DNA of 64,000 nt. Origin: an uncultured Selenomonadales bacterium. Its GTDB lineage: Bacteria > Bacillota > Negativicutes > Acidaminococcales > Acidaminococcaceae. Positions 47,510 to 60,492 of this stretch are shown here, piece by piece (the first letter of the stretch is position 1; each line of letters begins with the position of its first letter). Made by a program: the position numbers and the translations under genes. The stretch is from NCBI GenBank assembly GCA_900315925.1, contig ONAV01000002.1:1-64000 (forward strand). Direction: 5' to 3'. A model generated the notes under the pieces. The model was given only the letters and a program-made list of their open reading frames with translations, searched no databases and was not told where the DNA came from.

Positions 47510-47898
47510 ACCGTTTTTCTTTAGTCGTGCGATAAAAAATATTGTATTGAGTGTTTTGCGTTCGTTACAGGGCATTTTACGAAGTATGTTTTTCTTAATC
47601 AGCCCAATTTTTATAAAAGTGTAAACCAACACCAGGTGAATTAATCGCCCATGGCCAAAGATCAACTTCTGCAGAAATGGTACGTTCTGTTTTTGTATGT
47701 TCAATGAAATAGAACGTCCAATCTTAAAATACACTGAGTTTACAATACTTATTTTAATATTGGCATTCGAAAGGTTTGCCTTTTTTATTTCTGTAATAAA
47801 ACCTTATCAAAAAGTAGACTTACTGGCATACTGCAGATCCGGCTGTAATTCTGTGTCAAAACTTCGATATAAACTTTTGAAATATATATCAAAATATT
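47510..47898. other. Gene-poor stretch between the TA locus and the recombinase
   Basis: About 390 bases, AT-rich. A minus-strand frame of 90 codons (47462-47734) overlaps the toxin end and has no ribosome-binding site or recognisable motif. I see no repeats or terminators. It could be the remains of a lost gene. Confidence 0.4.
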
Positions 47899-47927
47899 TT
47901 GCCATTTTGACACACTTTTGTTATAAT
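47899..47927 (+). promoter_or_regulatory. Promoter of the serine recombinase gene
   Basis: TTGCCA (47899-47904), 17-base spacer, TATAAT (47922-47927). The operator-like motif at 47952 lies just downstream of the expected start. Confidence 0.7.
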
Positions 47928-47951
47928 TTATAGTAGTTAAAGATTTATCAA

Positions 47952-47968
47952 AATCTTATTTTATGATA
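47952..47968. promoter_or_regulatory. Operator-like motif before the recombinase
   Basis: AATCTTATTTTATGATA, matching the relaxase-side motif TATCATATTTTATGATA at all but three positions; an overlapping TTTATCA/TGATAAA inverted repeat flanks it. Confidence 0.6.
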
Positions 47969-47979
47969 AAGGTGGTATT

Positions 47980-48606
47980 ATGGAAAATAAAACCTTTGCT
48001 TATGTACGTGTCAGCAGCAAAGAGCAGAACCTGTCAAGGCAGATCGATTCCATGCTGCAGTATGTTAAAGATCCCCGCGATATTTACTGTGATAAGCAAT
48101 CCGGAAAGAATTTCGAACGCCCCGGATACCAGGCTCTTTTTTACAATCTTCGTTCCGGAGATGAATTATATATTCACACTTTATCCCGGTTGGGCCGAAA
48201 CAAAACAGAAACAAAAAATCAGCTGATCGAGCTGCAGAAAAAAGGAGTCCTTGTCCGTGTGCTGGATATCCCTACTACGTTAATGGATTTTTCCGCATTT
48301 GGCTCCCTGCAGCGATCCATTATGGAGATGGTTAACAACATCCTGATCGAAGTCCTTTCCACCATCGCGGAGGTAGAACGGGATAATATCCGGACAGCCC
48401 AGAAAGAAGGTATACAGTCAGCCAAAAAGCGCGGCATACACTTTGGACGTTCTCTTACACCGTATCCGGATTCCTGGTCTGCAGATTACAAAGCATGGAA
48501 AAATGATCAGTGTAGCGCAATATCCCTCATCCGGAAATATAACTTTTCTGCCAGCACGTTTTACCGTCTTGTACGGCGTTGGGAAAAATCACAAAAAATC
48601 CACTAA
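47980..48606 (+). CDS. Serine recombinase (resolvase/invertase family)
   Basis: 208 residues. Catalytic Ser in AYVRVSSKEQNLSRQ (about residue 11-12), the Arg motif LSRLGRNKTE, the long E helix with AEVERDNIRTAQKEGIQSAKKRG, and a C-terminal helix-turn-helix (SLIRKYNFSASTFYRLV). Size fits plasmid resolvases (multimer resolution) or DNA invertases, not large integrases. It could maintain monomers of the element, or act on the cassette locus at 57-59 kb; neither is shown. The GGTGG site precedes the ATG. Confidence 0.9.
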   Translation: MENKTFAYVRVSSKEQNLSRQIDSMLQYVKDPRDIYCDKQSGKNFERPGYQALFYNLRSGDELYIHTLSRLGRNKTETKNQLIELQKKGVLVRVLDIPTTLMDFSAFGSLQRSIMEMVNNILIEVLSTIAEVERDNIRTAQKEGIQSAKKRGIHFGRSLTPYPDSWSADYKAWKNDQCSAISLIRKYNFSASTFYRLVRRWEKSQKIH

Positions 48607-48645: not shown

Positions 48646-49065
48646 TTATATTTCAATACTGTTACCTAAAATTGCCAGCATTTCGCGTGGCGTAACTATA
48701 AAAGGTTTCAACGGAAAATGTTTTATATTGCCGGTAACAAGATAAGCATCTTCAGATGATCTTGCTTCCATTGTAACTGCATAAAAAACAATATCCGAAG
48801 TATGAGGAAGAGATTCATCTATTGCAGCCGGGTTAAATGCTACACCACGCTTTTTTATTCCTTCAATCAATATCTGTATATCATTTTCTTTAAAAGGAAA
48901 TTTTTTGCGCCGCAGCACTTCATCATATTCTGCAATTATTTTTTCATTTAAGATTGGAGTTATCTTGCCAACAAGTGCATGTTCGACGACCTTCCCTGGT
49001 ATGGAATCCCAGCGTAATAATGCGGAGACAAGCACATTTGTATCAATTACCGCATATTTTTTCAT
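48646..49065 (-). CDS. PIN-domain toxin (VapC-like)
   Basis: 139 residues. PIN RNase fold with acidic residues in VIDTNVLVSALL (Asp7), IAEYDEVL, SSEDAYLVTGNIKHF: consistent with the COG1569-type PIN family. Likely cuts RNA, with the small gene upstream as antitoxin (ATGA overlap of start and stop). Length is normal. Confidence 0.88.
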   Translation of the reverse strand: MKKYAVIDTNVLVSALLRWDSIPGKVVEHALVGKITPILNEKIIAEYDEVLRRKKFPFKENDIQILIEGIKKRGVAFNPAAIDESLPHTSDIVFYAVTMEARSSEDAYLVTGNIKHFPLKPFIVTPREMLAILGNSIEI

Positions 49066-49358
49066 TGCTGTTGACTCCTGACTGCGTTGATTTCCGCATT
49101 AATCTCTTCCAGTGTCATATTTGCGATACCGGCTTTTTGCGCCTCATCACTCATGCGTTTCATGGCTTGTATTGCTTCATAAGCCATATATTCTTTATCC
49201 GGAAGCTGCATGCTGAACGGAATCCCTTTCATCTGCACGGAACGCGTCAGAAAAATCCGGATCGCAGTAGGAAGGTCAAGACCAAGCTGAGAATAGATTT
49301 CTGTTGCTTCCTGTTTCAACTTTTCATCAATCCGGAGTTGCAATAAATTATTTGCCAT
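49062..49358 (-). CDS. RelB/DinJ-like antitoxin
   Basis: 98 residues. N-terminal ribbon-helix-helix: LLQLRIDEKLKQEATEIYSQLGLDLPTAIRIFLTRSV, typical of the RelB/DinJ family; the C-terminal part is helical and would bind the toxin. Start ATG at 49358, with AAGGGGAG eight bases upstream. Normally paired with YafQ/RelE-type toxins; here paired with a PIN protein. Probably represses its own promoter. Confidence 0.88.
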   Translation of the reverse strand: MANNLLQLRIDEKLKQEATEIYSQLGLDLPTAIRIFLTRSVQMKGIPFSMQLPDKEYMAYEAIQAMKRMSDEAQKAGIANMTLEEINAEINAVRSQQQ

Positions 49359-49434
49359 AGTCAAGTCTCCCCTTTCATCTGAATTTATTTGTAATGCAAT
49401 TGTATCATCAATCCTGTTCATATTCAAGCCCCTT

Positions 49435-49689
49435 TTAATCATTTCTCTTATTTCCTTTGAGCTGTTCTGTTGCATATTTCAGACGCTGAATACATACATC
49501 AAGGGATGTTTGCAATGATTCGGACATACAGTTCATGTTATCCTTGTTTTCTTGCAAACCATCTTTCATGATTTCAAAAATAATGAATTTCAGTCTGGTG
49601 AGTTCAACAATGACATTGTTTAGAATATCCATCGGTTCATAGTTGTTAGATTCTTTAACATAAAATTTAATCAAATTTGTTTTTTCCAT
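49435..49689 (-). CDS. Small helical protein, unknown
   Basis: 84 residues. Start ATG at 49689, with AGGAGG upstream. Predicted mostly alpha-helical (VIVELTRLKFIIFEIMKDG, SLDVCIQRLKYATEQLKG). No family recognised. One base after the stop of the gene at 49691. Confidence 0.6.
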   Translation of the reverse strand: MEKTNLIKFYVKESNNYEPMDILNNVIVELTRLKFIIFEIMKDGLQENKDNMNCMSESLQTSLDVCIQRLKYATEQLKGNKRND

Positions 49690-53438: not shown

Positions 53439-54707
53439 TTATTTTTTCTTTCTTCCCCTGCTATTGTTTTTTTGTTGTTCAATAGCATTTTCTTTGGTTG
53501 TTTCAATAGTTTTCTCTGCTTTTTTGGTCTGTTGCTCTTTTGCAGAGTTGTCCAGATTTTGGTCTTGTTCCTTTTTCTTGTCGATTTCGTTTTTGCATTT
53601 ATCAACGAATTCTTCCAAAAATTCTGCGCTTCCGTCAGCCTTCTTACTTTTTGCCAGCCTGGGGGATTTTTCATCCAGCGCATTTACAATATCTTTCTTT
53701 TCAAAGCCTTCTGTAAGCATCTGTTGGACAATGGGTTTGTCATGGAAGTTTTCAATTTTTTTCTCTGCTGACTTGTATGCTTCGACCGCCAGCTGCGTGT
53801 ATCTTTCTTCCGCCGGTGTTTTTCCTTTTGCCGGTTGTTTGGCGTTCAGGTTGTATTCGCACATCTTCCGGGTAATCATACGGAACGCATCGGCTTTGCT
53901 GGTCGCTTCGGTGTGGGAAATTCCCATGTTGTTCATAGCTTTAACCTGGGCTTCCGTAGCCGGTTTGAAATTCTTGGCATGTTCAGCCAGAGCTTCCTGC
54001 ACTTTGGGATCTTTTGCGGCTTGTTGCAGCATATAATCAATATTCTTCACGGTATTTTTTGCATTGACCGGCGAATGTTCCTGTACCGCTTTGATAATAT
54101 TGTCTTTTTTGATACCGTCTTTCAGCATTTCACGCATGATCGCGATATCATTAAATTTAGTTAGGTCACCATTTACCTTTTTTAGTTCCGCAGCAGCCAG
54201 TTCGTTGTACCGGTCTTCAACAGAGATGAACTTACTGTCCGGTTTTTTGTAGTTTTCCAGAAACTTTCTGTTAGAGTTCCGGCTGATAATTTTGTTGGCA
54301 TTTTTCTTGGTCAGCTTATCCTCATCGTACTGGATCTTGTTTTCTTCCAAATACTTTTTCTGGTCCGGAGTCGCTTTTTCCGTAGAAAAATTGTCATGCA
54401 TCCGGAGCATGTCGCTGGCTTCCCCCATGGTCAGTTGCTTTTGAATTTCGATGCCCCGGTCTTCCAATGCTTTTAACTGTCTTTCACTGGCAGGGTTCGC
54501 GCGCCACTCTTCCCTGTTTTTTTCTTTGAACGCTTCATAGTCCAACAGCATCTGAGCAGCTTCCGCATTGGTCAGATTGGCTTCTGACATATCGCCCAAT
54601 CCTTCTTTCATTGCCATACGGTCTTTCAGCCATTGTTCTGCCGGTGCCTGCGCTATTTCCTCCGGCGCATTCACCATGTCCTTGAGTGTGTCGAGATACT
54701 TTGCCAT
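53439..54707 (-). CDS. Large helical-repeat protein of the element, unknown
   Basis: 422 residues, hydrophilic, mostly alpha-helical. Two internal repeat types: a short one at about 73-101, 112-141 and 249-277 (A-S/T-x3-Q-x-K-x-L/M, ... G-I, ... A-x4-I/L) and a longer one at about 160-212 and 295-347 (RY-x2-LA ... ML-x2-G-x2-K-x-I ... A-x4-SP). The tail (about 370-422) is Lys/Glu/Gln-rich and ends NNSRGRKKK. Similar modules occur in large element-borne proteins (recall, not searched). AAAGGAGAG precedes the ATG. Confidence 0.7.
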   Translation of the reverse strand: MAKYLDTLKDMVNAPEEIAQAPAEQWLKDRMAMKEGLGDMSEANLTNAEAAQMLLDYEAFKEKNREEWRANPASERQLKALEDRGIEIQKQLTMGEASDMLRMHDNFSTEKATPDQKKYLEENKIQYDEDKLTKKNANKIISRNSNRKFLENYKKPDSKFISVEDRYNELAAAELKKVNGDLTKFNDIAIMREMLKDGIKKDNIIKAVQEHSPVNAKNTVKNIDYMLQQAAKDPKVQEALAEHAKNFKPATEAQVKAMNNMGISHTEATSKADAFRMITRKMCEYNLNAKQPAKGKTPAEERYTQLAVEAYKSAEKKIENFHDKPIVQQMLTEGFEKKDIVNALDEKSPRLAKSKKADGSAEFLEEFVDKCKNEIDKKKEQDQNLDNSAKEQQTKKAEKTIETTKENAIEQQKNNSRGRKKK

Positions 54708-54799: not shown

Positions 54800-57211
54800 T
54801 TACCTTGGATGGTTTGCGTTATAGGCTTGTCCGAATGCCTGTGTATCTGCATCCTGTTGTACTGTGGTAGTTGTTATACCCTGCGAAGATTTTTTGTCAT
54901 TCTTAGGTTTGTTACCACGTACTCGTTCTGCATTAATTTTGTGCAGTTCCGGTGCATATTCTTCCAGTTGTGCCTGATCGACTTTTGCCCCCTTGCTCAA
55001 TGCGTTATACAGCATTTCTGCGTATTCATACCGGGTCATTTGGCGGTCGCCCTTAAATTCGCCATCAGGGTATCCTTGAACAAAACCATTTCCATGCAGC
55101 GTCTCTACTGCTTTGTTGGCCCAATGCGATTTTTCCACATCTGGGAACGCTGCACGTTTTTCTGTAATCAGAGACAAACTCTGGATTTTCTTTTCAACAG
55201 CTTTCAGGCGTTTGTTAAGCATGTCATTTTCTGCACGCAGTGCATCATTATCTTTCTGATATTTGGATCTCGGCGTACCAAAACGGAAGGTTAAACCTGC
55301 AGATATCATGTTTTCACCATTACCGATCGTACCGGCGAGGTTCATACTGACATTTCTACTAAAATGGTACTGCCCGCCGACAGCTGCAGCAGTCTTCCCT
55401 TTATAGTGGCCCATGCCCATCGCCATGCTGAACTTACTGCCCGGGTCAAATTCAGCGTATTGCAGACCAGCCAATGCCGCAGCCCCAGCACCAACTTTGT
55501 CAATCCTCGTATCCATATTATCCATCCGCCTGTTTAAAGAACCACTCGGAAGCTGTATATCATTTGTAACTACCTTATCCGCAGTTAGGGTTCCGCTCAC
55601 ATTCGCATCACCATCAACCTGAAGATTTTTACCAACATGGGCATTACCTTTCAGATTGCTGTCACCTTCTACAGTTAGATCTCCACCATAGCGGCCATTC
55701 CCATGAATATTGGAATTTCCTAATACTTCCAAATCTTTTTCAATGGTAGTGTTGCCGGAAAGGTTTGTATCACCGTCTACCTGTAAGTTTTGATAAATAT
55801 GGGCATCACCTTTTAGGTTGCTATCGCCTTCTACCGTCAGATTTTTTTCAATGGTGGTGTTACCGGAAATGTTTGTGTCTCCATCCACCTGTAAGTTTTG
55901 ATAAACATGGGCATTGCCTTCCAAATTGCTGTCGCCCTTTACCGTCAGATCCTTTTCAATGGTGGTGTTGCCGGAAATGTTCGTGTCTCCGTCTACCTGT
56001 AAGTTACTCTTTAAATGAGTGTCCCCATCCACATTCAGTTTTCCACCAATATTGGCATCGCCTTCGGTAAGAATTGATGCAAATTCCGGATTTTTGTCCA
56101 AATCAATTTCTATTTGTGTATTTCCGTTTTCGTCTTGGACAATGATTGTTTTAATATTTTTACTGTCATATTCGTTATCCGCTTTAGTTCCGCCACCAAT
56201 GATTGATACTTTAGACCCAATTTTGTTCGTAACATCATCACCAGAATTGGCACCGAACTGCAAGCCGGAATTTACAACATCATCAATTGCGTTATCTAAA
56301 GCTGCCAAATTTTGAGAAACATTATTGTTTTTTTGGATATATTCACCATCTTCATTTAATGCGCCAATCTGTAAATCCAAAGCCTTCAGATTAGCATTAA
56401 CAGTATTTTCAGTCTTTATATATGTGCCATTTGCAACTGACTCAGCACCAATCTTATCATCTAAAACTTTCAAATTAGCACCAGTCGTATTCGTCGTTTT
56501 AACATAATTTCCGTTTGCGTACGAACGGACTTCATCGTACAGCTTGTCACCGTTAATTAAGCCAGTATTACCGTCGTCAACGGAACCGTTACCGGTGACA
56601 GATACGCCGTTGCTGTTCACGGTAACGTTGGTTCCGGCTTTTACAGCAACACCGTTAGAACCCACGTCAATGCCGTAGCCAGTTTTAACAGAAACCTTGT
56701 TATCGGAACTAATGGTGATACCGTTACCGGCAGAATAAGAAGTACCTCCTATAACTGCAGCGATTCTATTTGATATATCAGAACCATAAATACTTTGGAC
56801 TTCATTTAAAGTTGCACTTCTATATACATCAACTGGATTACCACCAGCATCTACTTCGTCAGTAAGATAATATGCCAAAGCCCCCGAATTAACATCTTTT
56901 CTAACAATCAACTGACTGGTTACATACCCAGAATTACCTTTAACAAACTGATAATACGTATAAGTACCATTACCGGAAACATAAAGATTATTATCTGACT
57001 GAGCATTGCCTACATCAAGTGTTTCAAAAGGAGTAGCTTGAGAAGCTGCAAACACATTTCCACATGATATAACCGTCACTAATAACCCGGCAACCAATAT
57101 TTTACTAAATACATTACTTTTCGGTGCTTTCGTCCGGCTTTTCGCTAATTCCGAAGCCACCACATAGCATTGTTTCACTGTTGACCACACAATCTTATAA
57201 ATTTTGTTCAT
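54800..57211 (-). CDS. Trimeric autotransporter adhesin (YadA type) with C-terminal SLH domain
   Basis: 803 residues. Extended signal peptide (MNKIYKIVWSTVKQCYVVASELAKS, then a signal core ending VFAAS), a head region with SAGNGITISSDNKVSV and NVTVNSNGVSVTGNGS, a stalk with three to four repeats of about 36 residues (QVDGDTNISGNTTIEKDL pattern), then the YadA anchor (LNRRMDNMDTRIDKVGAGAAALAGLQ ... NMISAGLTFRFG), a coiled coil and an SLH domain (FPDVEKSHWANKAVETLH ... GYPDGEFKGDRQMTRYEYAEMLYNAL). The SLH end would sit in the periplasm and bind peptidoglycan. Confidence 0.93.
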   Translation of the reverse strand: MNKIYKIVWSTVKQCYVVASELAKSRTKAPKSNVFSKILVAGLLVTVISCGNVFAASQATPFETLDVGNAQSDNNLYVSGNGTYTYYQFVKGNSGYVTSQLIVRKDVNSGALAYYLTDEVDAGGNPVDVYRSATLNEVQSIYGSDISNRIAAVIGGTSYSAGNGITISSDNKVSVKTGYGIDVGSNGVAVKAGTNVTVNSNGVSVTGNGSVDDGNTGLINGDKLYDEVRSYANGNYVKTTNTTGANLKVLDDKIGAESVANGTYIKTENTVNANLKALDLQIGALNEDGEYIQKNNNVSQNLAALDNAIDDVVNSGLQFGANSGDDVTNKIGSKVSIIGGGTKADNEYDSKNIKTIIVQDENGNTQIEIDLDKNPEFASILTEGDANIGGKLNVDGDTHLKSNLQVDGDTNISGNTTIEKDLTVKGDSNLEGNAHVYQNLQVDGDTNISGNTTIEKNLTVEGDSNLKGDAHIYQNLQVDGDTNLSGNTTIEKDLEVLGNSNIHGNGRYGGDLTVEGDSNLKGNAHVGKNLQVDGDANVSGTLTADKVVTNDIQLPSGSLNRRMDNMDTRIDKVGAGAAALAGLQYAEFDPGSKFSMAMGMGHYKGKTAAAVGGQYHFSRNVSMNLAGTIGNGENMISAGLTFRFGTPRSKYQKDNDALRAENDMLNKRLKAVEKKIQSLSLITEKRAAFPDVEKSHWANKAVETLHGNGFVQGYPDGEFKGDRQMTRYEYAEMLYNALSKGAKVDQAQLEEYAPELHKINAERVRGNKPKNDKKSSQGITTTTVQQDADTQAFGQAYNANHPR

Positions 57212-57331
57212 AGATTTTCCCCTTTCAAAAAAATATTGATTATTTTTGCTGCTATATCAACACATTGCATCAAGTGTGCTGATACAGGAACAAAAGTTTC
57301 CAAAGAAAACCCTTTCAAGGAGGATTATTGC

Positions 57332-57799
57332 ATGAAAAAACTATTTAGACCAAAACAGTTTAATTCCGGAATGATAGGCAAAACACTGGCAGCGGGGATT
57401 TTATTCTGTGCATTAAGCTGCAGTACAGTTTTATCAGTAAAAGCTGCTACTTTTGCTGATGGTTTTTTGTCAGTTGATAAAACTGCCTTAGCACAGGTTA
57501 TTGGTAGTCACAAAGATAGCCAAGGCCTTATTGATGGTAATGTTGTTAACGAGAGTTCTGCGGCATATAATTCATCGATTGTTGTTAATATAAATCCTCA
57601 AAGCGGTGCTATTACTGTCATTTGTGGTTGGGAATATCAAGGCCCCGGAGATAATCAACCGTTTTATTCTGGCTCTATTACTTTAACTGATGCGGATTTA
57701 TCTGCATTAGGTATTGATCGTTCTAAACTTTCCCGTGGTACAACCTATACCGCCGGTACCGGTATCACCATTGGTTCCGATAACAAGGTTTATGTTTAA
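57332..57799 (+). CDS. Truncated autotransporter N-terminal cassette 1
   Basis: 155 residues. Signal peptide (MIGKTLAAGILFCALSCSTVLSVKA) without the ESPR block, a variable region, then TTYTAGTGITIGSDNKVYV and a stop. DNA up to the stop matches the full-length gene around 56691-56708 (TCCGATAACAAGGTTT shared), after which similarity ends. No stalk or anchor, so it cannot form an adhesin alone. Has its own AAGGAGG site. Divergent from the full-length gene. Confidence 0.75.
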   Translation: MKKLFRPKQFNSGMIGKTLAAGILFCALSCSTVLSVKAATFADGFLSVDKTALAQVIGSHKDSQGLIDGNVVNESSAAYNSSIVVNINPQSGAITVICGWEYQGPGDNQPFYSGSITLTDADLSALGIDRSKLSRGTTYTAGTGITIGSDNKVYV

Positions 57800-58458
57800 A
57801 GTAAAGTACTGAATTTTTCTTCATAATTTCCGTTATCGGACGGGCGGACTTCGGTGTAGAGTTTACCGCCGTCAATTAGGCCAGTATTCCCACTGGCAAC
57901 TGTACCGTTACCGGTAACAGAGATGCCGTTGGAATTTACCGTAACGTTGGTCCCGGCTATGGCGGAAAAGGTTGTTCCACTTAACGCAAGACCATTACCA
58001 GCGGTATATTTGGTATCGGTGTCCTGCGTGGTAATCGTACCTTTTGTACCGTCTGCTTTGGTGTAGGTAATGGTTTTACCACTGACAGACAAGCCGGTAA
58101 TAGCATTAGAACCAGAACCAGAAACATCCCCAATTACTACCCATGCATCCGTACCACCGTCACCTTCACCACTTGAATTGCCGCTTGGATTAAGTAAATG
58201 TAAAGTTCCAGTAGCAACATCATATGTTAAGTAAACATTATTTGTTGAGTAATTCCAAGCGCCTCCGCCATGGTCTCCAACAGCGGCATTAACTGGAATT
58301 ACAATTCCGCAATTTAACACACAGCTCAATATTCCTGCAATAAGCGCTTTGCTGAACATTCTACTCCTCGGTGCTTTCGTCCTATGTTTTGCCAGCTCAC
58401 TGGCAACTACATAGCAGTTCCTTGCCTTGCTCCAAATGATTTTAAATGTCTTGTTCAT
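57796..58458 (-). CDS. Truncated autotransporter N-terminal cassette 2
   Basis: 220 residues. ESPR-type signal (MNKTFKIIWSKARNCYVVASELAKH), variable head, then TKYTAGNGLALSGTTFSAIAGTNVTVNSNGISVTGNG, LIDGGKLYTEVRPSDNGNY and a short unrelated end EEKFSTLL. Similarity to the full gene stops at AACGGAAATTATG (57822-57834). AAAGGAG site. Its end overlaps cassette 1 by four bases, tail to tail. Confidence 0.78.
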   Translation of the reverse strand: MNKTFKIIWSKARNCYVVASELAKHRTKAPRSRMFSKALIAGILSCVLNCGIVIPVNAAVGDHGGGAWNYSTNNVYLTYDVATGTLHLLNPSGNSSGEGDGGTDAWVVIGDVSGSGSNAITGLSVSGKTITYTKADGTKGTITTQDTDTKYTAGNGLALSGTTFSAIAGTNVTVNSNGISVTGNGTVASGNTGLIDGGKLYTEVRPSDNGNYEEKFSTLL

Positions 58459-58569
58459 GTACATTTCTCCTTTCAAAAAACAATTTAAAAGCCAAATATT
58501 TGTCCTTACGGAGTAAAGCCAAATATTTAGTTTTTAAATTTAAAATTTTTAATAGGGGGTATTTGATTT

Positions 58570-59313
58570 ATGAACAAAATCTACAAACTGGTATGGTCGA
58601 AAGTGAAAAATTGTTATGTGGTTGTATCTGAATTGGCGAAGTCCCATACGAAATCGCCGAAGTCGGGGATAATGAGTCGTTCTTTGGTTGCTGGTGTGTT
58701 AGCTTCTGTTTTAAGTTTTAGTGTTGTTCCGTCAGTTTTTGCTTATGTTAATACTTATTATGTTGAAGACCCTATGCATAAAAATGGCTATAGATATGTT
58801 ATTTTTGATGATATTTATGATGGTGATACTGGTGATACTGGTTATGTTTCATTAGCAGTTCGTGATTCTGATGGAGCGTTAGGTATACTTGTTTCATCTG
58901 GAAATGGTCAACCTTCAAATGCTACTTCTTTTCGTTTTGGGGCTATACCAGATGCATATGTAAGTTCTTCCGGTAGTTCAAGTGGTTCTGTTGCTATAAA
59001 TGGTTTGTCTGCAAATGGCAGAACTATTACATATACTAAAACGGATGGGTCTACTGGTACCATTACTACCCAAGATACTGATACTACATATTCCGCAGGC
59101 CATGGCGTTTCGTTAAGCGGCACTACGTTTTCCGCCAAAGCCGGGACCAACGTTACGGTAAATTCCAACGGTATTTCCGTAACCGGTAACGGCTCCGTCG
59201 CTTCCGGAAACACCGGTCTCATAGACGGCGGCAAACTGTATACGGAAGTCCGCCCGTCCGATAACGGAAATTATGTTATTTTTTTATCCCCGTTTCCGGA
59301 ATTTTTTCTTTGA
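58570..59313 (+). CDS. Truncated autotransporter N-terminal cassette 3
   Basis: 247 residues. ESPR (MNKIYKLVWSKVKNCYVVVSELAKS), signal ending PSVFA, a distinct head region, then TKTDGSTGTITTQDTDTTYS, NVTVNSNGISVTGNGSVASGNTG, LIDGGKLYTEVRPSDNGNY and a foreign end VIFLSPFPEFFL. Similarity to the full gene ends at AACGGAAATTATGTTA (from 59263). Head to head with cassette 2; its last 30 bases overlap the 3' end of the antirestriction gene. Confidence 0.78.
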   Translation: MNKIYKLVWSKVKNCYVVVSELAKSHTKSPKSGIMSRSLVAGVLASVLSFSVVPSVFAYVNTYYVEDPMHKNGYRYVIFDDIYDGDTGDTGYVSLAVRDSDGALGILVSSGNGQPSNATSFRFGAIPDAYVSSSGSSSGSVAINGLSANGRTITYTKTDGSTGTITTQDTDTTYSAGHGVSLSGTTFSAKAGTNVTVNSNGISVTGNGSVASGNTGLIDGGKLYTEVRPSDNGNYVIFLSPFPEFFL

Positions 59314-60492
59314 CGAATTTCCACCCAGCTGCAACGTCCTCACCGGTTCTTGTTTAGAATCTACGTCAATTTCTTCTACTTTTTTACCGCTTGTCAGTGT
59401 AACTTTTTGTTCTTCTTTGGGCTTCAGTGCTTCAATTTGCTCTTTGGTTAAATCTTTTTCAATCATCCGGCTGATAATATATTGCGATGCTTTATCTGCG
59501 TCATTGGCAGCTTTGGCTAATTCATTCGGATCTCCGCGTAAAATTTCACCCCATTGCTCATAGACGTCTTCTTCTTTTTTTAATCCCTTTGACCAGTTCT
59601 GCAGATATGCGATATGATTTTTGTAGTTAAGCTGCACTCCGTACTCCATCTGCAGGAACATGGCAGTCAGTTCTGCCCGCAGTTCCTCTTTCGCATATTC
59701 AACACTTCCGAATTTGTTAGGTTTGGTAATGCCCGATCGATCAAGCCGGTCTGCAGCTCCAGTGGAATGTCCGATTTCATGGGCGACAGTTCCATAAAAT
59801 GCGGGAAGATCCTCAAATTTATGCCGTTCCATAACATGGATTTCATCTTTTGCCGGATCATATTCATTGCTGCGCGATTGGTCGAATACAATCTTAGCCT
59901 CACTGTTCTGTATCATCAGTTCCATGGCCTGATTGGGTTCGTTTTCATCCACATGGCTTACAAATTCTTTTTGTTTCTCCGGCTCAATACCTTCAATCTG
60001 GCTTACGTTGAAAACCACAAAATAATCGACATACGGAACGTTTTTCATTTTTTGCACCATGTTACCGTCTTTATCTTGAATCATGTCCGGTACGATCTGC
60101 TGTGTGTCCGGATCAATTTTATAAACCGGTTTCTGAATGGTGCCCCACTTTTCAATGAGTACGCCTTTCTCTCCCTTCCGGACATGTGCGCCTAACTTTT
60201 TTGCAAAGTTGTAGGTACACCACCGGTTATCCGGATAATTTTTCTCCATGGCAATCATGAACAGTTTAATCGCATTATATCCGTGGTAATACGGGCTTTC
60301 CTTTTGGGTTCCTTCCCTGGCCTGCTGGTTTTTGACCATAGCGCGTAAACTTTTGGGCCGGATGGGAATACCGCAATGCTGGCTGCTCCATTCAAATAAT
60401 TTGCCGGTCGTCACATCATTGATGATCTGATCTACAAACTCCTGACGGTGCTGTGTCAGCTTTTCATAAGAATTTGCCTTATTTTCCGCCAT
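59284..60492 (-). CDS. ArdC-like antirestriction protein with zincin motif
   Basis: 402 residues. N-terminal ArdC domain (ssDNA-binding; YYHGYNAIKLFM, NRWCTYNFAKKLGAHVRKGEKG) and a metallopeptidase-like domain with HEIGHSTGAADRL (about residue 242). ArdC relatives shield incoming DNA from restriction; plasmid ones are homologous to the N-terminal part of the RP4 TraC primase, which is carried into recipients. The C-terminus ...PVRTLQLGGNSSKKKFRKRG matches the end of the protein at 60866. Start overlaps the small upstream gene. Confidence 0.88.
   Translation of the reverse strand: MAENKANSYEKLTQHRQEFVDQIINDVTTGKLFEWSSQHCGIPIRPKSLRAMVKNQQAREGTQKESPYYHGYNAIKLFMIAMEKNYPDNRWCTYNFAKKLGAHVRKGEKGVLIEKWGTIQKPVYKIDPDTQQIVPDMIQDKDGNMVQKMKNVPYVDYFVVFNVSQIEGIEPEKQKEFVSHVDENEPNQAMELMIQNSEAKIVFDQSRSNEYDPAKDEIHVMERHKFEDLPAFYGTVAHEIGHSTGAADRLDRSGITKPNKFGSVEYAKEELRAELTAMFLQMEYGVQLNYKNHIAYLQNWSKGLKKEEDVYEQWGEILRGDPNELAKAANDADKASQYIISRMIEKDLTKEQIEALKPKEEQKVTLTSGKKVEEIDVDSKQEPVRTLQLGGNSSKKKFRKRG

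Follow-up and report, generated by a model that had tools for sequence, protein, structure and literature searches.

A candidate head-switching array with dif-like sites in a trimeric autotransporter adhesin locus on an integrative conjugative element

In a 64-kb stretch of DNA from an uncultured Selenomonadales bacterium (contig ONAV01000002.1, positions 1 to 64,000; "the window" below), a gene for a trimeric autotransporter adhesin is followed by three truncated cassettes, c1, c2 and c3. The locus can be read as a head-switching array for this adhesin, carried on an integrative conjugative element, with recombination sites that resemble dif and with the host's XerC/XerD as the most likely recombining enzyme. 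We put the probability of this reading at about 0.63. In organization, such an array would best be described as a plasmid shufflon in mirror image, with the N-terminus as the variable end and host XerCD as the driver.

In the proposed mechanism, four heads could each be joined to a single part consisting of stalk and anchor: the current one and those of c1, c2 and c3. Every boundary between head and stalk is a 28-bp dif-like site, with its XerC arm toward the head and its XerD arm outside. Oppositely oriented sites with equal central hexamers would invert the DNA between them, namely S1 x S4 and S3 x S4 (CGGAAA) and S1' x S2 (CAAGGT). Each inversion would exchange the N-terminal signal and the head while keeping the reading frame.

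Adhesin gene, cassettes and boundary sites

The full-length gene encodes, in order, an ESPR signal, a head, a neck, a bactofilin-like stalk, a YadA anchor and SLH. It matches both PF13018 (ESPR) and PF03895 (YadA anchor), the mark of type Vc. A first-pass annotation, made from the DNA alone, had described the three N-terminal cassettes that follow as alternating in orientation (+, -, +), each with a signal peptide and two with ESPR. Open reading frames (ORFs) and Pfam agree: ESPR is found in c2 and c3, and c1 has a signal peptide without it. The start of c2 is corrected to 58458. The heads are arranged as two pairs of divergent neighbours, that of the full gene with c1, and c2 with c3. All three cassette frames are open from the start codon to beyond the end of homology with the full gene; in c1 the homology with the head of the full gene extends to SDNKV, and the frame of c3 enters the 3' end of an ArdC-like gene. 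The genes of c2 and c3 start back to back, and an imperfect 28-nt palindrome lies between their starts (58482-58540). A promoter scan of the locus was uninformative (13 found, 12.9 expected).

Inverted homology is seen between 57822-58114 and 58983-59275 (78% identity), between 56500-56641 and 59137-59278 (74%), and between 56683-56746 and 57737-57800 (86%). The homology breakpoints of the copies agree within a few nucleotides and fall on the dif-like sites listed in Table 1.

The first-pass annotation had noticed that the homology shared by the full gene, c2 and c3 ends at one 13-mer, AACGGAAATTATG. Exactly three copies are present in the window (56503-56515, 57822-57834 and 59263-59275), and likewise three in the whole genome; with two mismatches allowed, the bare 13-mer occurs within chance expectation. 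The observation holds with a refinement and a correction. The 13-mer is the core of a longer 28-bp dif-like signal, and it is the position of the homology breakpoints on such sites that exceeds chance. The break of c1 falls on another, equivalent site, GATAA-CAAGGT-TTATG, which has S1' as its partner in the full gene.

The four junctions have in common GATAA (GCAAA in the full gene), six bases and TTATG. Because this pattern is the core of an Xer site, the dif of the genus was sought. Defined from other loci and genomes rather than from the array, it reads TTTTACGTCCGATAA-TATATA-TTATGTAAAATC both in this genome and in most congeners. Both chromosomal dif arms of the genus, ACGTCCGATAA-N6-TTATGTAAAAT, are present at the cassette boundaries. 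The XerC arm of the c2 and c3 sites (CCGTCCGATAA) matches the genus dif at 10 of 11 positions; since the pattern used in the dif search did not include the ACGTCCG part, the agreement of c2 and c3 in that part is independent.

The match can also be judged by scanning. Over about 128,000 positions of the window, scored at the 22 arm positions, the best five were S4, S3, S1', S2 and S1 (18, 18, 17, 16 and 16), and one unrelated position ties at 16, the lowest of the five boundary scores. Peak scores in random 64-kb sequences are 15-17, and a control of 640 kb of adhesin and conjugative-element DNA from relatives gave one match of at least 17 and seven of at least 16. The pattern TCCGATAA-N6-TTATG has 58 matches in 59 family genomes, mostly chromosomal dif, against 2 for the reversed control. 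Five of the matches are in this genome, and three of those five are S2, S3 and S4. In the nearest relative, the cassette-less adhesin has the same RPADGNYI protein motif and a site score of 8/22, so protein constraint alone is insufficient to create such a site.

The sites are also ordered. Their orientations alternate, S1(-), S2(+), S3(-), S4(+). The XerC arms lie inside both head pairs, and XerD arms face each other across a 15-bp gap. By central hexamer the sites form two sets, S1, S3 and S4 with CGGAAA, and S1' and S2 with CAAGGT. Compared with c2 and c3, c1 loses its homology to the full gene 62 codons earlier, because the c1 site, S2, pairs by CAAGGT with S1', which is inside the full-gene neck.

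Extra dif-like sites with other central hexamers were seen in the family (G labels denote genomes, and L labels loci taken from them): G000:C59:8200-8218, G002:C74, G001:C17, G013:C14, G045:C2:24097 and 49232, and G031:C4:28478 and 53619. In G045 and G031 one such site is about 25 kb away from dif and has its orientation, the pattern that Xer-integrated elements should leave.

Table 1. Features of the adhesin locus, its surroundings and related elements
Feature	Position	Strand	Description
Full-length trimeric autotransporter adhesin	54800..57211	(-)	803 aa; ORF and Pfam
Constant part	54800..56507	(-)	Stalk, anchor and SLH downstream of S1; sequence, breakpoint alignment
S1, full gene	56497..56524	(-)	TCGTACGCAAA-CGGAAA-TTATGTTAAAA; 16/22 to genus dif arms; CAAA at ATAA position
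S1', inside full-gene neck	56683..56710	(-)	AGTTCCGATAA-CAAGGT-TTCTGTTAAAA; 17/22; TTCT at TTAT position
Cassette c1	57332..57799	(+)	155 aa, truncated; signal peptide without ESPR, head
S2, end of c1	57773..57800	(+)	GGTTCCGATAA-CAAGGT-TTATGTTTAAA; 16/22
Gap between XerD arms of S2 and S3	57801..57815		15 bp; "empty D module" in pdif terms
S3, end of c2	57816..57843	(-)	CCGTCCGATAA-CGGAAA-TTATGAAGAAA; 18/22
Cassette c2	57796..58458	(-)	220 aa, truncated; ESPR, head, neck
Cassette c3	58570..59313	(+)	247 aa, truncated; ESPR, head, neck
S4, end of c3	59254..59281	(+)	CCGTCCGATAA-CGGAAA-TTATGTTATTT; 18/22
Conjugative-element gene	53439..54707	(-)	RepB-primase C-terminal helical domain; left of adhesin locus
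ArdC-like antirestriction/zincin gene	59284..60492	(-)	Pfam ArdcN, MPTase-PolyVal
Serine recombinase of the element	47980..48606	(+)	Sin/Tn3-type; Pfam Resolvase; PDB match Sin; res-like repeats upstream
Autotransporter beside virB4, related elements	L045:9675-12254; L112 (G102:C1 ~268.3-273.2 kb); L116 (G095:C6 ~459.8-462.2 kb)

Selection, predicted inversions and the recombining enzyme

In the necks of c2 and c3 about half of the synonymous sites differ, and the protein is hardly changed. Over 45 neck codons dS is 0.93 and dN 0.031 (dN/dS 0.03), and over 94 codons dS is 1.38 and dN 0.084 (dN/dS 0.06); such pairwise ratios are blind to timing and treat selection before and after truncation alike. 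Ahead of the junction, the last ten codons of c2 and c3 have the same DNA sequence (p about 0.0008 for a terminal run by stratified permutation), and another identical run of ten codons lies farther upstream. No stops or frameshifts are present in c1, c2 or c3, and relaxed selection was not found. By these measures of sequence change, the cassettes are under strong purifying selection, and c2 and c3 are not pseudogenes.

Two explanations without site-specific recombination can be weighed here. Ordinary decay, which the first-pass annotation had offered as its alternative, would mean that tandem or inverted duplications of the adhesin were truncated by chance and are now pseudogenes. The stalk and anchor are indeed missing from three copies, and no relatives show an alternative order. 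Decay is nevertheless a poor fit and the least credible of the explanations: the breakpoints coincide within a few nucleotides on dif-like sites, the reading frames are unbroken, with the low dN/dS of purifying selection, and c1, c2 and c3 all fuse to the stalk in frame. Alternatively, heads might be exchanged by RecA-dependent recombination or gene conversion across the neck, as with silent pilin cassettes, and the copies do have 137-293 nt of neck homology in common. This homology, however, is 74-78% identical with perfect runs of just 13-30 bp, it stops exactly at the dif-like sites, and the synonymous sites of c2 and c3 are near saturation rather than homogenised, which makes the RecA route very unlikely.

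The inversions proposed for a head-switching array can be simulated. Inversion between S1 and S4 places c3 on the stalk in an open gene of 802 aa, the in-frame join that the first-pass annotation had predicted. Inversion between S1' and S2 places c1 on the stalk (783 aa, open). For c2 it takes two steps, S3 x S4 and then S1 x S4 (779 aa, open). The joins were placed within the central hexamers, and a random join has a one in three chance of an open frame.

The first-pass annotation had named no recombination system. The boundary sequences point to host XerC/XerD, rather than to the serine recombinase of the element. Both xerC and xerD are present in the genome (TIGR02224 and TIGR02225, above cut-off). 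On the contig that carries the element, no tyrosine recombinase (PF00589), and in this sense no Rci-like gene, was found. On this reading XerCD would act on the boundary sites, and would do so at the present day.

The serine recombinase could instead be a dedicated invertase of the locus. Its gene is 6 kb away on the same element, its family includes invertases, members of that family adjoin adhesin clusters in congeners, and the cassette-less stretches of the element in two related genomes (G102 and G095) yielded no homolog. Its closest structural relatives, however, are Sin and the Tn3-type resolvases. Five TRTCAAAA motifs on both strands, within about 150 bp (47805-47953) directly upstream of its gene, look like its own res site. 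This motif is absent from the cassette junctions, which match dif instead, so the own sites of a Hin/Mpi-type enzyme were not found there. The chromosomal loci of its relatives are without inverted cassettes. It is thus unlikely to be the switching enzyme, and highly improbable as a dedicated invertase.

That congeners have serine recombinases next to their adhesin clusters had suggested a dedicated invertase, a candidate that was rejected on the same absence of inverted cassettes. In these chromosomal clusters the recombinases are about 200 aa long and often stand next to an ORF of about 420 aa with a Cas12f1/TnpB-like TNB domain (L150:10737-11339 and L150:8907-10160; L152:8297-9577; L153; L095). 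The two genes are possibly an IS607-like or domesticated pair.

Several points weigh against an array that switches through XerCD. No recombined junction was seen in the genome assembly, which has a single arrangement and only the three copies of the 13-mer. XerCD at dif normally requires FtsK. Between S3 and S4, the XerD arms agree at only 8 of 11 positions. A search with a cassette profile found no second array among about 380 Negativicutes genomes. The motif ATAA-centre-TTAT is intact in S2, S3 and S4, but the two sites in the expressed gene, S1 and S1', are degenerate beside the centre, and an Acinetobacter site diverged in this motif gave no catalysis (PMC11705084). The head switching by inversion that the first-pass annotation proposed is well supported by anatomy (sites, hexamers, orientation, frames) and by purifying selection; the lack of an alternative junction and the changed sites of the expressed gene speak against switching at the present day. 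Its description as antigenic or receptor switching is interpretive.

Both expressed-gene sites are altered next to the centre, at positions bound by XerC or XerD, so switching may be rare, or the array locked as it now stands. A stronger form of this idea is that an array assembled at Xer sites formerly switched but is now locked, so that only c2 and c3 could still swap and the expressed protein would be unaffected. The replacement of ATAA by CAAA in S1 and of TTAT by TTCT in S1' argues for it, as binding and cutting both depend on this motif (PMC11705084). On the other side, the cassettes have no stops or frameshifts and c2/c3 a very low dN/dS, so locking would need to be recent. Natural pdif sites, moreover, often have poor XerC arms (PMC11705084), so S1 may remain functional. 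A locked array is rather unlikely on this evidence.

Genomic setting and relatives

The window comes from an 85-kb contig (C29) of a 2.56-Mb genome that is 88% complete. The integrative conjugative element occupies roughly 24.7-71 kb of this contig, and the adhesin locus lies inside it at 54.8-59.3 kb. A location on a conjugative element, as the first-pass annotation had it, is borne out by genes for a MobA/MobL relaxase, VirB8, TrbI, a type IV secretion system (T4SS) coupling protein and a large serine integrase. A tRNA cluster adjoins the end of the element. The element also carries a gene pair for a PIN-domain protein and a RelB-like antitoxin (48646-49475).

Homologs of the two genes that flank the adhesin locus are adjacent in the nearest relative (G012:C42) with no adhesin between them. 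The locus is therefore an insertion here, with its right edge at the end of c3. The stop codon of the ArdC-like gene begins 3 bp past S4, which likewise makes S4 the right edge.

In the elements of G012, G102 and G095, a single trimeric autotransporter without cassettes is found in the T4SS gene cluster, adjoining virB4. The array itself was not found in IMG/VR, in plasmids or in the named genome collection. Candidate cassettes in G347, G010, G053, G348 and others were rejected as frame-shifted, contig-cut or insertion-sequence-interrupted autotransporters rather than arrays. In G053, two opposite copies of an ESPR autotransporter fragment (L099:6561-7571 and L100:5831-6841) lie about 126 kb apart, beside a transposase gene.

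Known systems and biological meaning

The nearest counterparts of the sites are the pdif modules of Acinetobacter. In these, C and D modules alternate, and experiments have shown inversion between inversely oriented sites whose 6-bp spacers are identical (PMC13141974). Like them, the array has sites of arm, hexamer and arm that resemble the host dif and alternate in orientation (PMC13141974, PMC11705084). Segments with XerC arms inside alternate with segments with XerD arms inside, hexamers differ while pairs match, and a dedicated recombinase is unnecessary. Whereas pdif modules are found on Rep_3 plasmids and hold whole genes between their sites, the sites of the array are within coding sequence, where inversion would change the N-terminus of one protein, and its carrier is a conjugative element of Negativicutes with a T4SS.

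The nearest counterpart of the gene arrangement is the shufflon of R64 and TP114 (Rci, pilV). It too has a constant part and partial ORFs in opposite orientations with inverted sites, and it too concerns an adhesin of a conjugative element, whose binding specificity is altered by inversion (PMC9045228). The shufflon, however, varies the C-terminus of a pilin with its own Rci and sfx sites, which have a 7-bp core and a conserved right arm of 12 bp. In the array, a type V autotransporter would vary in its N-terminal signal and head, at dif-like sites and with no Rci-like gene on the element.

Other surface proteins are also controlled by such recombinases. At the mba locus of Ureaplasma parvum, a Xer-family recombinase inverts parts of surface-antigen genes at short inverted repeats, but this is a specialised XerC acting at IRmba rather than at dif-like sites, and neither a head array nor a conjugative element is involved (PMC3599477). 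The E. coli autotransporter UpaE is controlled by DNA inversion through a tyrosine recombinase, but as an on/off promoter switch without exchange of heads (PMC6083910). No report of Xer combined with adhesin inversion or a shufflon was found in the literature searched, which left most subscription journals outside; within it, the nearest published case is the XerC-driven inversion at mba, via other sites (PMC3599477).

PilV shufflons alter which recipients a conjugative plasmid binds (PMC9045228). By analogy, the benefit of head switching would plausibly be to vary what the donor cell adheres to in mating, and the autotransporter beside virB4 in related elements hints at a role of such adhesins in mating. 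The full proposal is that the conjugative element uses the host's dimer-resolution XerC/XerD to shuffle adhesin heads through dif-like sites inside ORFs, with two hexamer codes, and so varies donor binding during mating. We hold this proposal at about even odds.

The locus suggests a genome scan for dif-like arms at points of gene truncation. If the proposal is true, it would unite Xer site arrays of the pdif type with adhesin variation of the shufflon type, which were not reported together in the literature searched. Dif-like sites inside an ORF could then act as protein-swapping points, and an element could diversify a surface protein without a recombinase of its own.

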